Below, piece after piece: positions 11,587 to 19,394 of a stretch of 22,769 bases of DNA (the first letter of the stretch is position 1; the number at the start of each line of letters is the position of its first letter). The stretch lies in the NCBI GenBank assembly GCA_902797585.1, contig CADBTK010000053.1:1-22769 (forward strand). Direction: 5' to 3'. Below the pieces are notes generated by a model that did not search any database, was not told where the DNA came from, and saw only the letters and a list, made by a program, of their open reading frames with translations. The stretch comes from Erysipelothrix rhusiopathiae. GTDB taxonomy: Bacteria; Bacillota_I; Bacilli_A; Erysipelotrichales; Erysipelotrichaceae. Both the position numbers and the translations under genes were made by a program.

Positions 11587-14061
11587 ATGGAAGAAAATAA
11601 AGTTTATGATCAAGTCGAAGAAGTTGAAATCTCCAAAGAGGTCAAAGAAGATTTCCTAGACTATTCGATGTCCGTTATCGTACAACGTGCTTTGCCAGAT
11701 GTACGTGATGGAATGAAACCTGTACATCGTCGTATTTTACATGCGATGAATGTATTAAATATTTCTGCAGGAGTAGCACATAAGAAAAGTGCTCGTATTG
11801 TAGGGGAAGTTATTGGGAAATACCACCCTCATGGGGATACAGCTGTTTATGATGCCATGGTTCGTATGGCCCAAGATTTCTCTTATCGTTATCCATTAAT
11901 TGATGGGCATGGTAACTTTGGTTCACTAGATGGTGATGGGGCGGCAGCAATGCGTTATACCGAAGCCAGAATGTCAAAAATTGCCATGGAAATGATGCGT
12001 GAAATCAACAAAGATACAGTTGATTTTATTGAAAACTATGATGGTGAAGAAACCGAACCAACAGTTCTTCCTTCTCGTTTTCCAAACTTATTAGTAAATG
12101 GATCTATGGGGATTGCGGTTGGTATGGCAACGAATATGGCACCTCATAACTTAACAGAAAGTATCAATGCGATTCTAGCTGTCATGGATAATCCAGATAT
12201 TACAGTTGTTGAATTAATGGAATTTATTAAAGGACCAGACTTTCCAACAGGTGGGATTATCTTAGGACGTAGTGGAATTCGTCAAGCATATGAAACAGGA
12301 CGTGGTTCTGTGATGGTTCGTTCTAAATATCGTATGGAAGATATGCCAAATGGAAAGAAACGAATCATTTTCTATGAAATTCCATATTCTGTTAATAAAG
12401 CAAACTTATTATCAAAAATGGCTAACCTAGTTCGTGACAAAGAAATCGAAGGGGTTACTTATCTAAACGATGAAAGTAACCGTGAAGGTATTCGTATTGT
12501 TATGGAACTAAAAAAAGATGCCCAAGAAGAAGTTATTTTAAATAAATTATTTAAAAATACGCCTCTTCAATCCAATTTTAGTATCAACATGTTGGCACTA
12601 GAAAATGGTCGTCCAAAACAATTAACATTAAAAGAAATCATTCAAGATTACATTGATTTCCAAGTTCAAGTCATTGAACGCAAAACACGTTTCGATTTAA
12701 AGAAAGCACAAGATCGTGCACATATCTTAGAAGGATTGCGTATTGCGATTGATAACATTGATGCAGTGATTCAATTAATTCGTTCTTCTAAAAAAGATGA
12801 AGCAGGATTAGTGGCGGATATGTGTAAAGAGTTTGGATTAACTGAAATTCAAGCGAAAGCCATTCTTGCGATGCAAATTCGTCGTTTATCCGGATTGGAA
12901 AGAGAAAAAATTGAAGAAGAATATCAAGAATTATTGCGTAAAATTGAAGACTTCAAGGATATCTTAGCAAATCATTCTCGAGTACTTGGTATTATTCGTG
13001 ATGACTTAAAAGAAATTGATGAAAAATATGGGGATGATCGTCGTACGGAAATTACAGATCAATATATCGATATGGAAGATGAAGATTTAATTCCACAAGA
13101 AGATGTCATTATTATGATGACTACTTCTGGTTATATTAAACGTATGCCAGTCGATACATATCGTGCACAAAACCGTGGGGGACGTGGAATTCGTTCATTA
13201 ACATTGAATGAAGAAGACTCCATCGATACGATGATTTCTATGTCTACACACGATCACTTATTGTTATTTACGGATAAAGGACGTGTTTATCGATTAAAAG
13301 GATACAACATTCCAAATGCCTCACGTACATCCAAAGGATTGCCAATTGTTAATATTCTACAATTGAGTAATGATGAAAATGTTACGACGTTATTAGCAAT
13401 TCCAAAAGAACATGAATTCAACTATTTATTGTTTGTGACAAGAGATGGTATTGTGAAACGTACAGACATTAGTGAATTTGAAAATATCAACCGTAATGGA
13501 AAAATTGCGATTAGTCTAAAAGAAGATGACTTATTGTGGTTTGTAAAAACAACTACAGGTGATGAAGATGTCATTATTGCAGCATCCAATGGAAAAGCGG
13601 TTCGTTTCCATGAAAACCAAATTCGTGTGATGGGACGTACAGCTAGTGGAGTACGTGGTATGAATGTAGAAGATGCCCATGTTGTGGGAGTAAGTACATC
13701 CAGCGAAGGAGATACTTTATTATCAATTTCTGAAAATGGATATGGAAAACGTAGTTTGGTTGAAGATTACCGACTTACTTCTCGTGGTAAAAAAGGTGTT
13801 TCTACAATGAATGTTACCGAAAAAACAGGGCAATTAATGTTAGTAAAAGCGGTACAAGGTGATGAAGATGCGATGATTGTAGCATCCAATGGAATCATGA
13901 TTCGTATCGCGGTTGAAAATATTGGAATCCATGGTCGTAATACCCAAGGAGTTCGATTGATTAACTTAGCAGATGATGCCACAGTAACACGATTAACACT
14001 TGTAGATCACGCCGAAGAAGAGGAAGAAGTAGAAGAAACAGAACAAACTAATGAAGAATAA
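11587..14061 (+). CDS. gyrA: DNA gyrase subunit A
   Basis: GyrA forms the double-strand break and wraps DNA. The start is the ATG at 11587 because AAAGGAG (11574-11580) precedes it; the frame is open 7 codons further but into gyrB. The 824 residues hold the breakage-reunion domain with catalytic Tyr124 ([10 protein letters not shown]) and the quinolone-determining segment [12 protein letters not shown], where Thr85 and Asp89 match E. coli Ser83 and Asp87; Thr there is a normal variant in other Bacillota such as Clostridioides. The C-terminal beta-pinwheel contains the GyrA-box QNRGGRG (about 528-534), which marks gyrase rather than topoisomerase IV. The protein ends in a short Glu-rich tail. 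A strong terminator follows. Confidence 0.98.
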
Positions 14062-14086
14062 GAGATAGGATTTTCCTATCTCTTTT
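14061..14086 (+). terminator. Intrinsic terminator after gyrA
   Basis: AGAGATAGGA, loop TTT, TCCTATCTCT gives a perfect 10-bp stem followed by T residues. It begins at the gyrA stop codon and ends the gyrase operon, facing the terminator of the opposite operon. Confidence 0.92.
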
Positions 14087-14095
14087 CATATATTT

Positions 14096-14122
14096 AAAAA
14101 ATGCCGATATTTCTCGGCATTT
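14096..14122 (-). terminator. Intrinsic terminator after the Crp-like gene
   Basis: On the minus strand AAATGCCGA, loop GAAATA, TCGGCATTT is a perfect 9-bp stem followed by a T run. It overlaps the last bases of the Crp-like gene and closes the minus-strand operon, about 10 bases from the gyrA terminator. Confidence 0.92.
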
Positions 14123-14792
14123 ATTGAATAATTTTTTGAAGAGCTTTTTTATCTAGGATGGTAAAACTACCTCGTTTTGTTTTTACCCAACCTTCTTTGA
14201 CCATTGTTTTTATCATACGAGCAACAACTTCTCTAGCGGAATTTATTTCTAAGGCTATTTCTTCCTGGGTTGTTTTTACTTCTAAAGAATGGTTTTTATT
14301 TACTTCGTCTAATAAATAAATCGCAATTCTTTGGTCCACTCGTAAAAATAATGTTTGTTGGATCATCCACATGACATCACTGAAACGATCGGTTGCTAAT
14401 TCATACACATAAGAACGGATATATATATTTTCTTCTTTCCAATGAGACATATGAATGGCAGGAATCACAAGAAGTGAACAATCTTTAACTGCTACCATTT
14501 GGGTATCAAAGGTTATTTGATTGACAACACATGCAGCCGATAAGATATCAACATCTTCAGGTTCCAATCGATACAATGTGATTTCCCTACCTTCCTCGGA
14601 AATCATAAAAGTACGTAATTCCCCTTCAAGAAGCATAATCATTCCAAGACAATCGCTTCCTTGATCATGTATGATTTGTCCTTTTTTAAATTGAGCAACA
14701 TAGCTAACAGATTCCATTTGTTCTTTTTGTTGATTAGTTAAATGTTCATAAAATGGAAGTTGACTCAAATAATCATGTGGGGATTTTATCAT
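14121..14792 (-). CDS. Crp/Fnr-family transcriptional regulator
   Basis: A 223-residue activator-type regulator: an N-terminal cyclic-nucleotide-binding fold (about 10-120; FKKGQIIHDQGS, LLEGELRTFMISEEGREITLYRLEPED), a dimer helix (about 125-165) and a C-terminal winged helix-turn-helix (about 172-212). The recognition helix INSAREVVARMIKTM keeps Arg187, Glu188 and Arg192, aligned with Arg180, Glu181 and Arg185 of E. coli CRP, which read TGTGA. The cAMP cassette (GE...R-S/T-A) is missing; the equivalent stretch is DVDILSAACVVNQITF. There is no FNR-type N-terminal cysteine cluster; cysteines are at 48, 88 and 105. The ligand is therefore unknown. It is the last gene of the thioredoxin-rhodanese-CoA-disulfide reductase operon, 3 bases after its neighbour, and is probably its autoregulator. 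Confidence 0.92.
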   Translation of the reverse strand: MIKSPHDYLSQLPFYEHLTNQQKEQMESVSYVAQFKKGQIIHDQGSDCLGMIMLLEGELRTFMISEEGREITLYRLEPEDVDILSAACVVNQITFDTQMVAVKDCSLLVIPAIHMSHWKEENIYIRSYVYELATDRFSDVMWMIQQTLFLRVDQRIAIYLLDEVNKNHSLEVKTTQEEIALEINSAREVVARMIKTMVKEGWVKTKRGSFTILDKKALQKIIQ

Positions 14793-14795
14793 AGT

Positions 14796-16442
14796 TTATT
14801 CTCCTAGATGTACAGCTTTGTAGAAGTTGACGCCACCTGGATAGATTTTAACATTTTTATATCCATTTTGGCTTAGGATACGCGCTGCATTATAAGCACG
14901 AACACCAATAGCACAGAAGACGATTACTTCTTTTTCTTTATCTAATTCATTGACTCTTTCACGCAATTGTCCTAAAGGAATATGTGTAAAATTCATAGGT
15001 AATGAATACCACTTTAATTCCCCACCTTCACGTACATCCAATACTTGTGCTTCTGGATGTGTTTCTACTTCATCCCAAGTTGCGATTTGTGCAAGACCAT
15101 CTAGTACATTTCCTGCTACAAAACCAGCCATATTGATTGGATCTTTTGCGGATGAATATGGTGGAGCGTACGCTAATTCTAATTCTTTTAAATCTTCAAT
15201 AGAGGCATGTAGCCTAATTGCACTAGCTAGAACATCAATACGTTTGTCAACTCCTTCATTTCCTACAATTTGTGCTCCATATATTTGGGAACCATCTTTA
15301 GAAAATAATAGTTTAATCATCATTGGTTGGGCTCCAGGATAGTATCCTGCATGAGAGTTTTGACGAATGATGATGGATTCATATTCTTTTTCTAAACGCT
15401 TTAATGTTTTTTCGTTAGCTCCTGTAGCTGCTACGGTTAAATCAAAGATTTTTGCAACAGAAGAACCTTGTGTTCCTTTATAAATTTCTTTATTTCCAAC
15501 AATGTTATTGGCTACGATTCGACCTTGTTTATTCGCTGGTCCTGCTAAAGGAATCATTGTCTTTCCACCAAAGATGAAATCATTTACTTCAATAACATCT
15601 CCCATCGCATAAATATTTGGATCTGTTGTTTGAAGAGAATCATTGACTTTAATTCCACCACGTTGGTTGATGTCTAATCCAGCATCTTTAGCAAGTTGAC
15701 TATTTGGTCTAACACCAATAGAAAGAATGATGGAATCGCTTTGAATTTGAGTTCCAGATTTCAAAGTGGTCTTAACTCCTTGTTCATTATCTTCAAAAGA
15801 GTCTACTCCATCGTTTAAAATTAAATGAATTCCTTTATTTTTTAATTCTTGATGAACAAGTTGAGCCATTTCATAGTCAAGTGGTGCCATCACTTGGTCC
15901 ATTGCTTCTACTAATGTAACATCTACACCAGCTTCTTTTAAGTTTTCTGCCATTTCCAATCCAATGAATCCCCCACCTACAATTAAAGCTGTTTTCATTG
16001 TTTGTGCTTGGGCTTTTAGACGTGTCGCATCATGGACTGTCCACAATGTTTGAATTTTTTCTGATTCAATTCCAGGAATTGGTGGACGTAATGGAGAAGA
16101 ACCTGTTGCGATTACTAATGTATCGTAACTTTCTTCATAACTTTCATTTTTATTATGATCCAAGATAGTAATAGTTTGGTTATCTCGATCAATTTTTGTG
16201 ACTTCATTACGAATACGAACATCGATATCAAATCGATTGTTCATAAGTTCTGGAGTCATTAATAATAAATCATCTTGTTCTGGAATCACATTTCCAATGT
16301 GATATGGAAGTCCACAGTTGGCATATGAAATATAGTCTCCACGTTCTAATAAAACAATGTCGGCATCTTTATCCAATCGACGTAAACGTGCAGCACAACT
16401 CGCACCAGCGGCTACTCCACCTATAATGACTGTTTTACTCAT
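14796..16442 (-). CDS. cdr: CoA-disulfide reductase with C-terminal rhodanese domain
   Basis: A flavoprotein of the pyridine nucleotide-disulfide oxidoreductase class 3, fused to a rhodanese. The 548 residues begin with the FAD-binding GGVAAGASCAARLRR and the single redox Cys43 in YANCGLPYHIG, the mark of CoA-disulfide reductase and NADH oxidase relatives. The NAD(P)H site is VGGGFIGLEMAENL (about 152-165), the second FAD motif YAMGDVIEV, and YAPPYSSAKDP is the dimer-interface active-site loop. From about 455 on lies a rhodanese domain with the active loop CAIGVRAY (Cys510). Such fusions reduce CoA disulfide, CoA persulfide or polysulfide with NAD(P)H; the exact substrate cannot be told from sequence. 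It follows the single-domain rhodanese by 2 bases and precedes the Crp-like gene. Confidence 0.93.
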   Translation of the reverse strand: MSKTVIIGGVAAGASCAARLRRLDKDADIVLLERGDYISYANCGLPYHIGNVIPEQDDLLLMTPELMNNRFDIDVRIRNEVTKIDRDNQTITILDHNKNESYEESYDTLVIATGSSPLRPPIPGIESEKIQTLWTVHDATRLKAQAQTMKTALIVGGGFIGLEMAENLKEAGVDVTLVEAMDQVMAPLDYEMAQLVHQELKNKGIHLILNDGVDSFEDNEQGVKTTLKSGTQIQSDSIILSIGVRPNSQLAKDAGLDINQRGGIKVNDSLQTTDPNIYAMGDVIEVNDFIFGGKTMIPLAGPANKQGRIVANNIVGNKEIYKGTQGSSVAKIFDLTVAATGANEKTLKRLEKEYESIIIRQNSHAGYYPGAQPMMIKLLFSKDGSQIYGAQIVGNEGVDKRIDVLASAIRLHASIEDLKELELAYAPPYSSAKDPINMAGFVAGNVLDGLAQIATWDEVETHPEAQVLDVREGGELKWYSLPMNFTHIPLGQLRERVNELDKEKEVIVFCAIGVRAYNAARILSQNGYKNVKIYPGGVNFYKAVHLGE

Positions 16443-16444
16443 AC

Positions 16445-16765
16445 TTATACTCTCTTTCCTTTATAAGAGGCAATTCCTCCAATGTTGTGAACATTGGTAA
16501 ATCCCATTTGTTGAAATACTTTGGTTGCTTGTGCACTACGAGCACCACTTTGACAATATACATATAAAGGAGTGTCTTTTCCTTTTACTTTATTATCAAT
16601 CATTTCTAATCGATCTAAAGGAATGTTCATACTCTTTTCGATGTGTCCACTGTTATACTCTTGAGAAGAGCGAACATCAATTAATTTTGCTCCTTGTGTT
16701 TGTTTAAATTCTTCAATTCCAGCGTTAATATCCACACCAGAAAATAAATTTCCAAATAATCCCAT
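16445..16765 (-). CDS. Single-domain rhodanese (sulfurtransferase)
   Basis: A small cytoplasmic rhodanese that carries sulfane sulfur as a cysteine persulfide. The start is placed at the ATG at 16763-16765 (MGLFGNLF); an upstream ATG at 16777 overlaps the AAAGGA ribosome site and is less likely. The 106 residues contain the domain entry KLIDVRSSQEYNSGHI, NIPLDRL, and the active-site loop CQSGARS with Cys71, followed by FTNVHNIGGIASYKG. There is no signal peptide. It sits between thioredoxin and the CoA-disulfide reductase-rhodanese fusion, so sulfur relay and thiol-based reduction are the probable shared theme. Confidence 0.92.
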   Translation of the reverse strand: MGLFGNLFSGVDINAGIEEFKQTQGAKLIDVRSSQEYNSGHIEKSMNIPLDRLEMIDNKVKGKDTPLYVYCQSGARSAQATKVFQQMGFTNVHNIGGIASYKGKRV

Positions 16766-16782
16766 ATTCAATACCATCCTTT

Positions 16783-16824
16783 CTTATATTATATAAGACA
16801 ATATGTCTCTATCTATGGTCTTAT
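16783..16824 (-). other. Overlapping inverted repeats between trxA and the rhodanese gene
   Basis: Three hairpins share bases here: CTTATAT-T-ATATAAG (16783-16797), AGACA-ATA-TGTCT (16796-16808), and a longer pairing of ATAAGAC (16793-16799) with GTCTTAT (16818-16824), which reaches the trxA stop codon. The longer helix and the small ones exclude each other. No T-run follows. They could be mRNA processing or stability elements that set different levels of thioredoxin and the downstream genes. Confidence 0.5.
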
Positions 16825-17138
16825 GCATTTTTTAACATTTGTTCAATGACAGGTTTTGGTTGTACTCCCATTTGTGTCGCAACAACTTTTCCTTCTTTAA
16901 AAACCATTAATGTTGGAATACTCATAATTCCAAACTCACTGGATAATTCTGGTTGTTCATCAACATTAATCTTTCCTACTACAAATTGTCCTTGGTATTC
17001 TTTTGCGATTTGTTCTATAGTTGGAGCCAACATTCGACATGGTCCACACCAACTTGCCCAGAAATCAATTAATACTGGTTTATCGGATTGTAGAACTTGG
17101 CTTTCAAAGTTTTCTTTTGTGATTGTTAATTCAGACAT
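16821..17138 (-). CDS. trxA: Thioredoxin
   Basis: The 105-residue protein is a classical cytoplasmic thioredoxin that reduces protein disulfides and persulfides. It has the full active site FWASWCGPCRMLAP with Cys31 and Cys34, buried-Asp context DFWAS, the cis-proline loop SIPTL (Pro75) and GV near the C-terminus. Length is standard and there is no signal sequence. It is the first gene of the minus-strand redox/sulfur operon, directly downstream of the Crp-type operator and the -10 box. It may be a dedicated rather than the general thioredoxin, since it is co-transcribed with rhodaneses; the window cannot show whether another trxA exists. Confidence 0.95.
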   Translation of the reverse strand: MSELTITKENFESQVLQSDKPVLIDFWASWCGPCRMLAPTIEQIAKEYQGQFVVGKINVDEQPELSSEFGIMSIPTLMVFKEGKVVATQMGVQPKPVIEQMLKNA

Positions 17139-17161
17139 AGTTATACCTCACTTTCAGTTTT

Positions 17162-17167
17162 ATTCTA
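17162..17167 (-). promoter_or_regulatory. -10 box of the trxA-rhodanese-cdr-crp operon
   Basis: TAGAAT on the minus strand, five of six bases matching consensus. The predicted start is near 17155. The -35 position (17185-17190) reads CAGATA and is non-consensus; it is overlapped by the Crp-type operator, as in activator-dependent class II promoters. Confidence 0.65.
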
Positions 17168-17182
17168 TTCTTAACATAAATT

Positions 17183-17208
17183 GGTATCTGTGACCTTATC
17201 ACATTACC
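17183..17208 (-). promoter_or_regulatory. Crp/Fnr-type operator (TGTGA-N5-TCACA)
   Basis: The core 17189-17203 has perfect TGTGA and TCACA half-sites separated by five bases (the CRP consensus has six). Outer GGTA (17183-17186) and TACC (17205-17208) extend the symmetry. The centre (17196) lies 41 bases before the predicted operon start, the class II activator position. The regulator encoded at the end of the operon has matching recognition-helix residues. It also sits just upstream of the divergent serS promoter. Confidence 0.75.
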
Positions 17209-17237
17209 TTGTAAAAAAAGGAAAAGAATGATATAAA
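17209..17237 (+). promoter_or_regulatory. Promoter of the serS T-box leader
   Basis: -35 TTGTAA (17209-17214), 17-base spacer, and extended -10 TGA-TATAAA (hexamer 17232-17237). The predicted start near 17244 is right at the foot of T-box Stem I. Confidence 0.7.
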
Positions 17238-17243
17238 ATACTC

Positions 17244-17466
17244 AAAGCATTGAAAAGGAAGAGTACATATATTCTTTATTCTAGAGACGATATGGTTGGT
17301 GAAAATATCGATAAAGACATATGGAAAAGCCCCTTTGAGCAGAAATGATGAACCAAGTAGTTATTTCCGGTACAGACCGTTATCATGTTAAGAGATCTTA
17401 TTTTATAAGATAAAAAGGGTGGCAACGCGAGACATCGTCCCTTTATGGGTAGAATGTCTTTTTTTA
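17244..17466 (+). ncRNA. T-box leader controlling serS (tRNA-Ser sensing)
   Basis: The leader has a Stem I with base pairing AAAGG/CCUUU (17254-17258 with 17332-17336), an internal loop with AGUA (17262-17265) opposite GAAAAGCC (17324-17331), helices CAUAU/AUAUG and CUUUAU/AUAAAG, and a distal stem CGAUAU/AUAUCG enclosing GGUUGGUG. The loop contains AGC at 17328-17330, a serine codon and the best specifier candidate. The conserved T-box AGGGTGGCAACGCG is at 17416-17429. The terminator pairs AGACAT (17430-17435) with ATGTCT (17454-17459) and ends in a T run; the alternative antiterminator uses the T-box and the downstream CGTCCC. Uncharged tRNA-Ser would favour read-through into serS. Confidence 0.93.
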
Positions 17467-19286: not shown

Positions 19287-19292
19287 ACCACT

Positions 19293-19371
19293 GCTACTAC
19301 AATGACATCTTATGAATCAGGTCAGGTCGGGAACGAAGCAGCCTTAAGTAAGCTCTGTCATGTGTAGTAGT
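19293..19371 (+). ncRNA. ffs: Signal recognition particle RNA (small bacterial, 4.5S-like)
   Basis: About 80 nucleotides folding into a single hairpin: CTACTAC (19294-19300) pairs with GTAGTAG (19364-19370), with ATGACA/TGTCAT continuing the helix. The apical domain is unmistakable: GGTCAGGTC, the GGAA tetraloop, then GAAGCAGCC, which binds Ffh. The tetraloop is closed by G-C, where the E. coli RNA has C-G, a compensatory swap. The T-rich run just after the hairpin (19371-19379) makes it self-terminating. It lies directly before tadA, and serS/ffs/tadA/dnaX clustering is common in Bacillota. Confidence 0.95.
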
Positions 19372-19394
19372 TTTTATTTAAAAAGGAAATTCAT

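Follow-up and report, generated by a model that had tools for sequence, protein, structure and literature searches.

A conserved palindrome with a five-base spacer upstream of trxA in Erysipelothrix rhusiopathiae, a very likely switch for a Crp-type activator of redox and sulfur genes

The stretch of Erysipelothrix rhusiopathiae DNA analyzed in this study (22,769 nucleotides, hereafter the window) carries on its minus strand a cluster of redox and sulfur genes that begins with trxA and ends with a gene for a Crp-like regulator. A short palindrome lies upstream of trxA, and the question raised by this locus is which protein, if any, acts there and in what manner. The original prediction described a class II operator of the CRP/FNR type through which the regulator activates its own operon. 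The sequence comparisons reported below make it very likely that a Crp-type activator uses the palindrome as a conserved switch.

Inspection of the region upstream of trxA confirmed the presence of TGTGA-N5-TCACA at positions 17189–17203 (TGTGACCTTATCACA; minus-strand reading TGTGATAAGGTCACA), which is the only exact N5 palindrome of the window. The predicted -10 hexamer TAGAAT is also present on the minus strand (17167 to 17162), exactly 21 bp past the operator. Taking the start 7 bp past the -10 box, the predicted transcription start (±2) falls at 17155 (minus strand), and the operator centre (17196) lies 41 bp upstream of it, as had been calculated. Likewise, no -35 box could be recognized: the best match at 16–18-bp spacing was 3 of 6 letters in the window, and at most 4 among 58 deduplicated sites from related loci. 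The region therefore has the traits of a predicted class II promoter, i.e. (i) a fixed distance between operator and -10, (ii) an operator overlapping the -35 region and (iii) the lack of a good -35 box.

The conservation of this arrangement was examined in two sets of loci. The discovery set comprised 23 loci at which a scan of genome contigs detected the Crp protein; a thioredoxin or CoA-disulfide reductase (CoADR) match was found within the fetched flanks of 20 of them, N5 palindromes adjoined redox genes, and -10 boxes were located 20–21 bp after TCACA. The test set (n = 51) comprised 39 new Clostridia loci and 12 Erysipelotrichales loci, all 12 of which had been scanned earlier as shorter pieces. 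A site was defined as TGTGA-N5-TCACA with up to 1 mismatch, and a -10 box as a match of at least 5 of 6 letters.

In the 51 loci, a -10 box occurred at exactly 21 bp after 36 of 112 oriented sites, compared to a mean of 2.37 for other offsets (Poisson, 8e-30), and in 500 shuffles at most 10 boxes were found at any single offset. The 39 Clostridia loci alone contained 78 oriented N5 sites, 25 of them with a -10 box at exactly 21 bp; when distances of 20–22 bp were accepted, the box accompanied 30 N5 sites in 24 loci, and 0–3 sites for each of the other spacers from N2 to N9. An N5 site with a -10 box at 20–22 bp was present in 8 of the 12 Erysipelotrichales loci. Among all 96 examined loci, 36 yielded no N5 site with a 5-of-6 -10 box. 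The same palindrome thus recurs at redox and sulfur genes in Clostridia and Erysipelotrichales loci containing an orthologous Crp-like gene.

The consensus of the 58 deduplicated sites with a -10 box at 21 bp was TGTGAY-N3-RTCACAGAA. The trailing GAA appears on the promoter side only (G in 46 and A in 47 of the 58 sites), and its counterpart in the window is GAT (17186–17188, minus strand). Since the G and the first A correspond to positions 3 and 4 of a -35 box at a 17-bp spacer, a rudimentary -35 element may remain at these promoters. Some sites face promoters in both directions: at one locus with ferredoxin-like and CoADR-like genes, a palindrome (L174:5232–5246) has TATAAT 21 bp away on both sides, and it is possibly a bidirectional class II operator.

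The distribution of the site was then compared with that of the regulator, using the pattern GTGAYNNNRTCAC-N21-22-TAWWAT and classing a Clostridia Crp protein as strong at a score of at least 110 bits. The pattern was detected in 41 of 245 Clostridia genomes (65 sites; 7 matches, counted by eye, for the reversed control). Site plus -10 occurred in 32 of the 61 Clostridia genomes with a strong Crp, compared to 9 of the 184 others (Fisher, 1.6e-15), and in none of the 10 Clostridia genomes encoding lower-scoring Crp proteins only. Moreover, none of the loci of 16 lower-scoring Crp paralogues contained an N5 site with a 5-of-6 -10 box at 20–22 bp, a single N5 palindrome lacking the -10 being found in one of them (L246). 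When the 30 best-scoring CoADR loci were sampled out of those from 125 matching genomes, the site was absent from all 14 in Crp-negative genomes and from all 5 in genomes with lower-scoring Crp only, and it was present in only 4 of the 11 in genomes with a strong Crp. Crp proteins of the N5 type and of the lower-scoring kind occur side by side in four of the sampled genomes (G263, G312, G319 and G365).

In Erysipelotrichales, the strict pattern matched 6 of 13 genomes with a strong Crp and 12 of 105 others (reversed control, 1); the 13 include the window's own genome, which this pattern misses. In two of the six (G052 and G076), the site and the crp gene are located on different contigs. The exact pattern TGTGACNNNGTCACA, which matched 9 of the 19 genomes of the discovery loci (19 of the 23 loci taken in), proved too strict for this order, as it matched only 5 of 118 genomes, none with a strong Crp. 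None of the seven TGTGACNNNGTCACA sites of these five genomes has a 5-of-6 -10 box at 20–22 bp, including three exact sites (L077, L082 and L083) within a single genome, G078.

The recurrence of the -10 box at 21 bp, together with the rarity of site plus -10 in Clostridia without such a Crp, points to a class II activator promoter. It could be argued that the palindrome is real but serves another co-occurring regulator, e.g. a Rex-like repressor, or that the Crp-like protein represses there, since co-occurrence is not the same as binding and Rex sites likewise contain TGTGA and TCACA. This explanation is improbable, because the spacing of Rex sites is even, site plus -10 follows the strong Crp and is missing from the 16 lower-scoring loci, and the fixed 21-bp distance combined with a poor -35 is a sign of an activator.

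E. coli class II CRP promoters have the same TGTGA and TCACA half-sites, with the operator in place of the -35 box. Their operator is a 16-bp N6 palindrome bound with cAMP, in contrast to the 15-bp N5 palindrome centred at -41 described here. The E. coli sites are centred at -41.5, which by arithmetic places the end of TCACA 21 bp before the -10; the promoter-side half-site of the window is at the same distance, and its far half-site is one base closer.

To evaluate the spacer, exact GTGA-Nn-TCAC matches were counted in the 51 test loci, each palindrome being counted on both strands. N5 gave 88 oriented matches, and every other spacer from 3 to 11 gave 4–20. Near the more distant members of the subfamily (21 loci), exact N5 matches numbered 18 when oriented, 9 of them followed by a -10 box at 21 bp, and N6 matches numbered 4, 2 of them with the box at that distance. 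N6 palindromes were also identified in 3 of the 16 loci of paralogues lacking the cysteine pair described below (L246:7486, L250:4553 and L253:1530), where the hexamers exactly 21 bp downstream match the -10 in 6, 5 and 4 of 6 letters, respectively; these three cases, although few, could be the ordinary-register counterpart.

At the sequence level, the original interpretation was supported with respect to class II geometry, operator conservation, the lack of a good -35 box and the operon's Crp-like protein as likely binder. Its equation with CRP/FNR sites was not supported, since the spacer is 5 bp instead of 6, in the window and predominantly in relatives. This one-base-shorter register, missed previously, is the distinguishing feature of the operator. 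The three N6 cases agree with a simple model in which the promoter-side subunit keeps a constant position with respect to RNA polymerase, and in the N5 clade the distal half-site has moved one base inward.

An ordinary CRP/FNR-type site of 6-bp register, from which N5 would be an accidental deviation, was considered very unlikely and was rejected on the strength of the spacing scans. The half-site letters and recognition residues do match those of CRP, and two oriented N6 matches with a -10 box at 21 bp lie near distant subfamily members. Against this, N6 (14 oriented matches in the 51 loci, compared to 88 for N5) does not rise above the level of other spacers, the N6 palindromes at 3 of 16 loci belong to paralogues without the cysteine pair, and exact TGTGA-N6-TCACA is absent from the 1.18-Mb source genome assembly.

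Published Crp/Fnr motifs of even register include wTGTGAnnnnnnTCACAw, TTGACnnnnGTCAA, GTAACnnnnGTTAC and the FNR box TTGATnnnnATCAA, and other motif types are mentioned for C. thermocellum and C. difficile (PMC1274295). No N5 Crp/Fnr operator was found in the published literature covered, which consisted mostly of open-access papers.

On the other side of the operator, promoter-like boxes of the divergent serS gene (TTGTAA-17-TATAAA; 17209–17237, plus strand) begin 5 bp beyond the palindrome, so both divergent promoters share a very short region. They are followed by a T-box leader (Rfam RF00230, 153.8 bits) at 17241–17445 (plus strand). Proximity to the -35-like TTGTAA, itself 17 bp from TATAAA, might suggest that the site mainly serves this serS promoter, but the distance from the operator to the TATAAA -10 is 28 bp and not 21, and serS was not conspicuous among the first genes downstream of relatives' sites (listing read by eye). 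Such a role was rejected because of the 28-bp gap and has little to recommend it.

The chance level was estimated for the window and for the source genome assembly (1.18 Mb, 68.6% complete). Under independent bases, the expected number of exact N5 palindromes is 0.024 for the window and 1.25 for the genome, in which 3 were found. The other two (C42 and C103) have no -10 box at 21 bp and look like chance occurrences, so no further regulon member was found in this incomplete genome. With one mismatch allowed, the window contains 3 matches, compared to 1.19 expected, and at least 3 turned up in 10 of 100 shuffles; the palindrome by itself would be weak evidence. A combined site was scored on both strands (the 10 palindrome letters at N5 plus TATAAT at +21; 16 letters), giving 17 matches in the genome and 12 for the reversed pattern. 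The window site, with 1 mismatch of 16, is the best of the genome; the other 16 matches all have 3 and do not rise far above the reversed control. A chance palindrome, the least credible explanation despite 3 occurrences where about 1.25 are expected, was rejected on this rank and on the conservation of letters, position and -10 distance over tens of divergent genomes.

The putative regulator is a 223-aa protein encoded at 14121–14792 (minus strand; PF13545, 6e-14; PF00027, 3e-10; AlphaFold2 mean pLDDT 88.7). Its assignment to the Crp/Fnr superfamily is based on scores of 40.4 bits for PF00027 (cut-off 27.5) and 52.2 bits for PF13545 (cut-off 27), as well as on the AlphaFold2 secondary structure. 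It scored far below the cut-offs of the equivalog models for CRP (NF008732; 29.8 bits, cut-off 266) and FtrB (NF006901; 46 bits, cut-off 211). The FNR-type N-terminal cysteine cluster for 4Fe-4S is absent, the only cysteines being C48, C88 and C105. The nearest solved structure by sequence is PDB 3dv8 (E = 2.7e-47), with an alignment that spans both C48 and C88.

C48 (codon 14649–14651, minus strand) is invariant in the subfamily sequences examined, and C88 (14529–14531, minus strand) is nearly so, being replaced by K in L192. In the AlphaFold2 model, C88 is located in helix 84–90 and C48 in the loop before strand 51–56. Both cysteines, together with R187, E188 and R192 of the recognition helix (codons 14217–14234, minus strand), were invariant in a 21-sequence alignment. 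C48 and C88 occur together in 57 of 58 subfamily sequences of the Clostridia set (39/39 high-scoring, 14/14 middle and 4/5 lower), whose alignment left out two further middle-scoring proteins with internal stops (L177 and L190). In the 16 paralogues, a cysteine was found at position 88 in none and at position 48 in two. These paralogues form a clade with support 1.0, apart from the cysteine-pair proteins, and the 14 middle-scoring proteins are split 7 and 7 across the midpoint root and do not form one clade.

The R-E-x-x-x-R motif, on which the original prediction had relied, is indeed present (R187-E188-x-x-x-R192). It does not by itself predict an N5 site, since 10 of the 16 paralogues have it (including L246, L250 and L253, the three with N6 palindromes) and yet none of the 16 loci contains such a site with a -10 box.

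Nearly identical Crp proteins were observed, together with similar N5 promoters (20 or 21 bp) ahead of genes for rubrerythrin, desulfoferrodoxin or small cysteine-rich proteins, in ten loci (L040–L047, L049 and L050) recorded as Faecalibacterium, Gemmiger, Oscillibacter, Hominifimenecus and Clostridium fessum. Such near identity across these genera suggests recent horizontal transfer.

The gene order downstream of the operator is trxA-rhodanese-CoADR-crp, on the minus strand, with intergenic gaps of 43, 2 and 3 bp. trxA (16821–17138, ATG at 17138) encodes a 105-aa thioredoxin (PF00085, 1.2e-33; TIGR01068, 134.7 bits, cut-off 96.8) and the second gene (16445–16777) a single-domain rhodanese of 110 aa (PF00581, 5.8e-19). 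The third (14796–16442) encodes a 548-aa CoA-disulfide reductase-like flavoprotein fused to a rhodanese (PF07992, PF02852 and PF00581), which scored 398.8 bits for PRK13512 (cut-off 394) and fell under the cut-offs of TIGR03385 and PRK09564. A terminator-like hairpin follows crp at 14060–14084 (minus strand; consensus scan, 1 found compared to 1.4 expected in shuffles). With all four genes on one transcript, autoregulation in the window would follow, and the short gaps make this part of the original prediction plausible here. It is not a conserved property, as in only 15 of the 55 loci with a located crp (the window being counted) does this gene follow such a site within 6 kb in the same orientation.

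Of 95 loci, 59 contained sites with a -10 box at 20–22 bp (80 oriented sites), and a first gene could be called for 76 of these sites. The encoded proteins were grouped by single linkage. Starts were chosen automatically, and spurious calls are possible for a few of the first genes or reverse-oriented sites. The thioredoxin/rhodanese/flavin-disulfide-reductase group accounts for 41 of the 76, rubrerythrin/rubredoxin for 10 and 4Fe-4S ferredoxins for 7. The remainder comprises a small cysteine-rich protein without a Pfam family (4 cases), which presumably resembles ferredoxin-thioredoxin reductase, three pairs, among them crp itself (L052 and L193) and a CcdA-like gene, and 8 singletons. Pfam analysis of ten representatives supported rubrerythrin, ferredoxin, DsbD/CcdA-like, desulfoferrodoxin, flavin disulfide reductase, YgaP-like and rubredoxin assignments; two of the ten gave no family.

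The site, its geometry and conservation, its co-occurrence with the regulator and the conserved cysteines are established at the sequence level, and the following mechanism is proposed from them. The Crp-like protein encoded in the operon, or an equivalent family member, would bind 17189–17203 as a dimer, recognizing the subfamily operator TGTGAY-N3-RTCACA, whose half-sites are one base closer than in CRP/FNR sites. With its promoter-side half-site 21 bp before the -10, the bound dimer would replace the missing -35 contact and recruit RNA polymerase, and trxA-rhodanese-CoADR-crp would be activated from the predicted start, with positive feedback possible in this organism. Redox or reactive-sulfur stress, exerted on the C48/C88 pair, is the probable activating signal; cysteine conservation and the composition of the regulon suggest thiol or sulfane-sulfur sensing. 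There is good reason to expect that an N5-register subfamily Crp does bind this operator and activate the operon in the class II manner, probably in response to such a signal.

A broader reading may be put forward tentatively, with slightly more doubt than confidence. It envisages a Crp/Fnr subfamily widespread in anaerobic Firmicutes that would combine a 15-bp operator (half-sites one base, or about 36 degrees, closer than in CRP/FNR sites, the promoter-side subunit fixed at 21 bp) with a nucleotide pocket turned into a C48/C88 thiol or sulfane-sulfur sensor, and would activate thioredoxin, CoA-disulfide reductase, rhodanese, rubrerythrin and related genes. If this holds, the shifted register would insulate the subfamily from N6-type paralogues in the same cell.

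CprK and FLP-type proteins have ligands and operators other than those considered here. They resemble the window regulator in being Crp/Fnr proteins with cysteines that are, or are proposed to be, redox-active; these cysteines occupy other positions. In CprK of Desulfitobacterium the redox-active pair is Cys11-Cys200 (PMC2610375), and redox-active or proposed redox-active cysteines are also mentioned for Flp of the FLP type of lactic acid bacteria (PMC5039431).

HcpR and HcpR2, the hcp regulators of Desulfovibrio, Clostridium and others, are similar in being Crp/Fnr proteins that control stress genes of anaerobes, and their sites were likewise predicted from genome comparisons. The published HcpR operators are of even register (PMC1274295), unlike the odd 15-bp palindrome found here, which places it outside the HcpR operator type. 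PgRsp of Porphyromonas gingivalis, a heme-binding regulator of redox genes, was modelled on 3dv8, named there as Eubacterium rectale (PMC6955866). It is linked to the window regulator through this structure; the portion of PMC6955866 covered contains no operator motif or spacing. In the literature covered, mostly open-access, no described regulator was found for the redox/sulfur regulon of these anaerobes.

The shortened operator would mark a family of putative redox regulators of anaerobic bacteria that has received little study. Crp/Fnr operators are usually viewed as having one register with variable letters, and a clade-wide change of spacing by one base is encountered here. With the promoter-side half fixed, it would be a clean case of a dimeric activator changing register, possibly avoiding cross-talk. 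As a search motif, GTGAY-N3-RTCAC placed some 21 bp ahead of a -10 box offers a tool for mapping the redox/sulfur regulon in many anaerobes, and the C48/C88 pair provides a testable sensor hypothesis.

Several minor observations were made in the same sequences. Many CoADR homologs in relatives (L084, L085, L086 and L263) occupy open frames of approximately 800–870 codons, with an extra C-terminal part relative to the 548-aa window protein. In L048, a TusA/DsrE-like stretch (identified by eye) is located directly downstream of CoADR. Finally, the window contains a bacterial small SRP RNA (RF00169, 68 bits) at 19291–19376 (plus strand).
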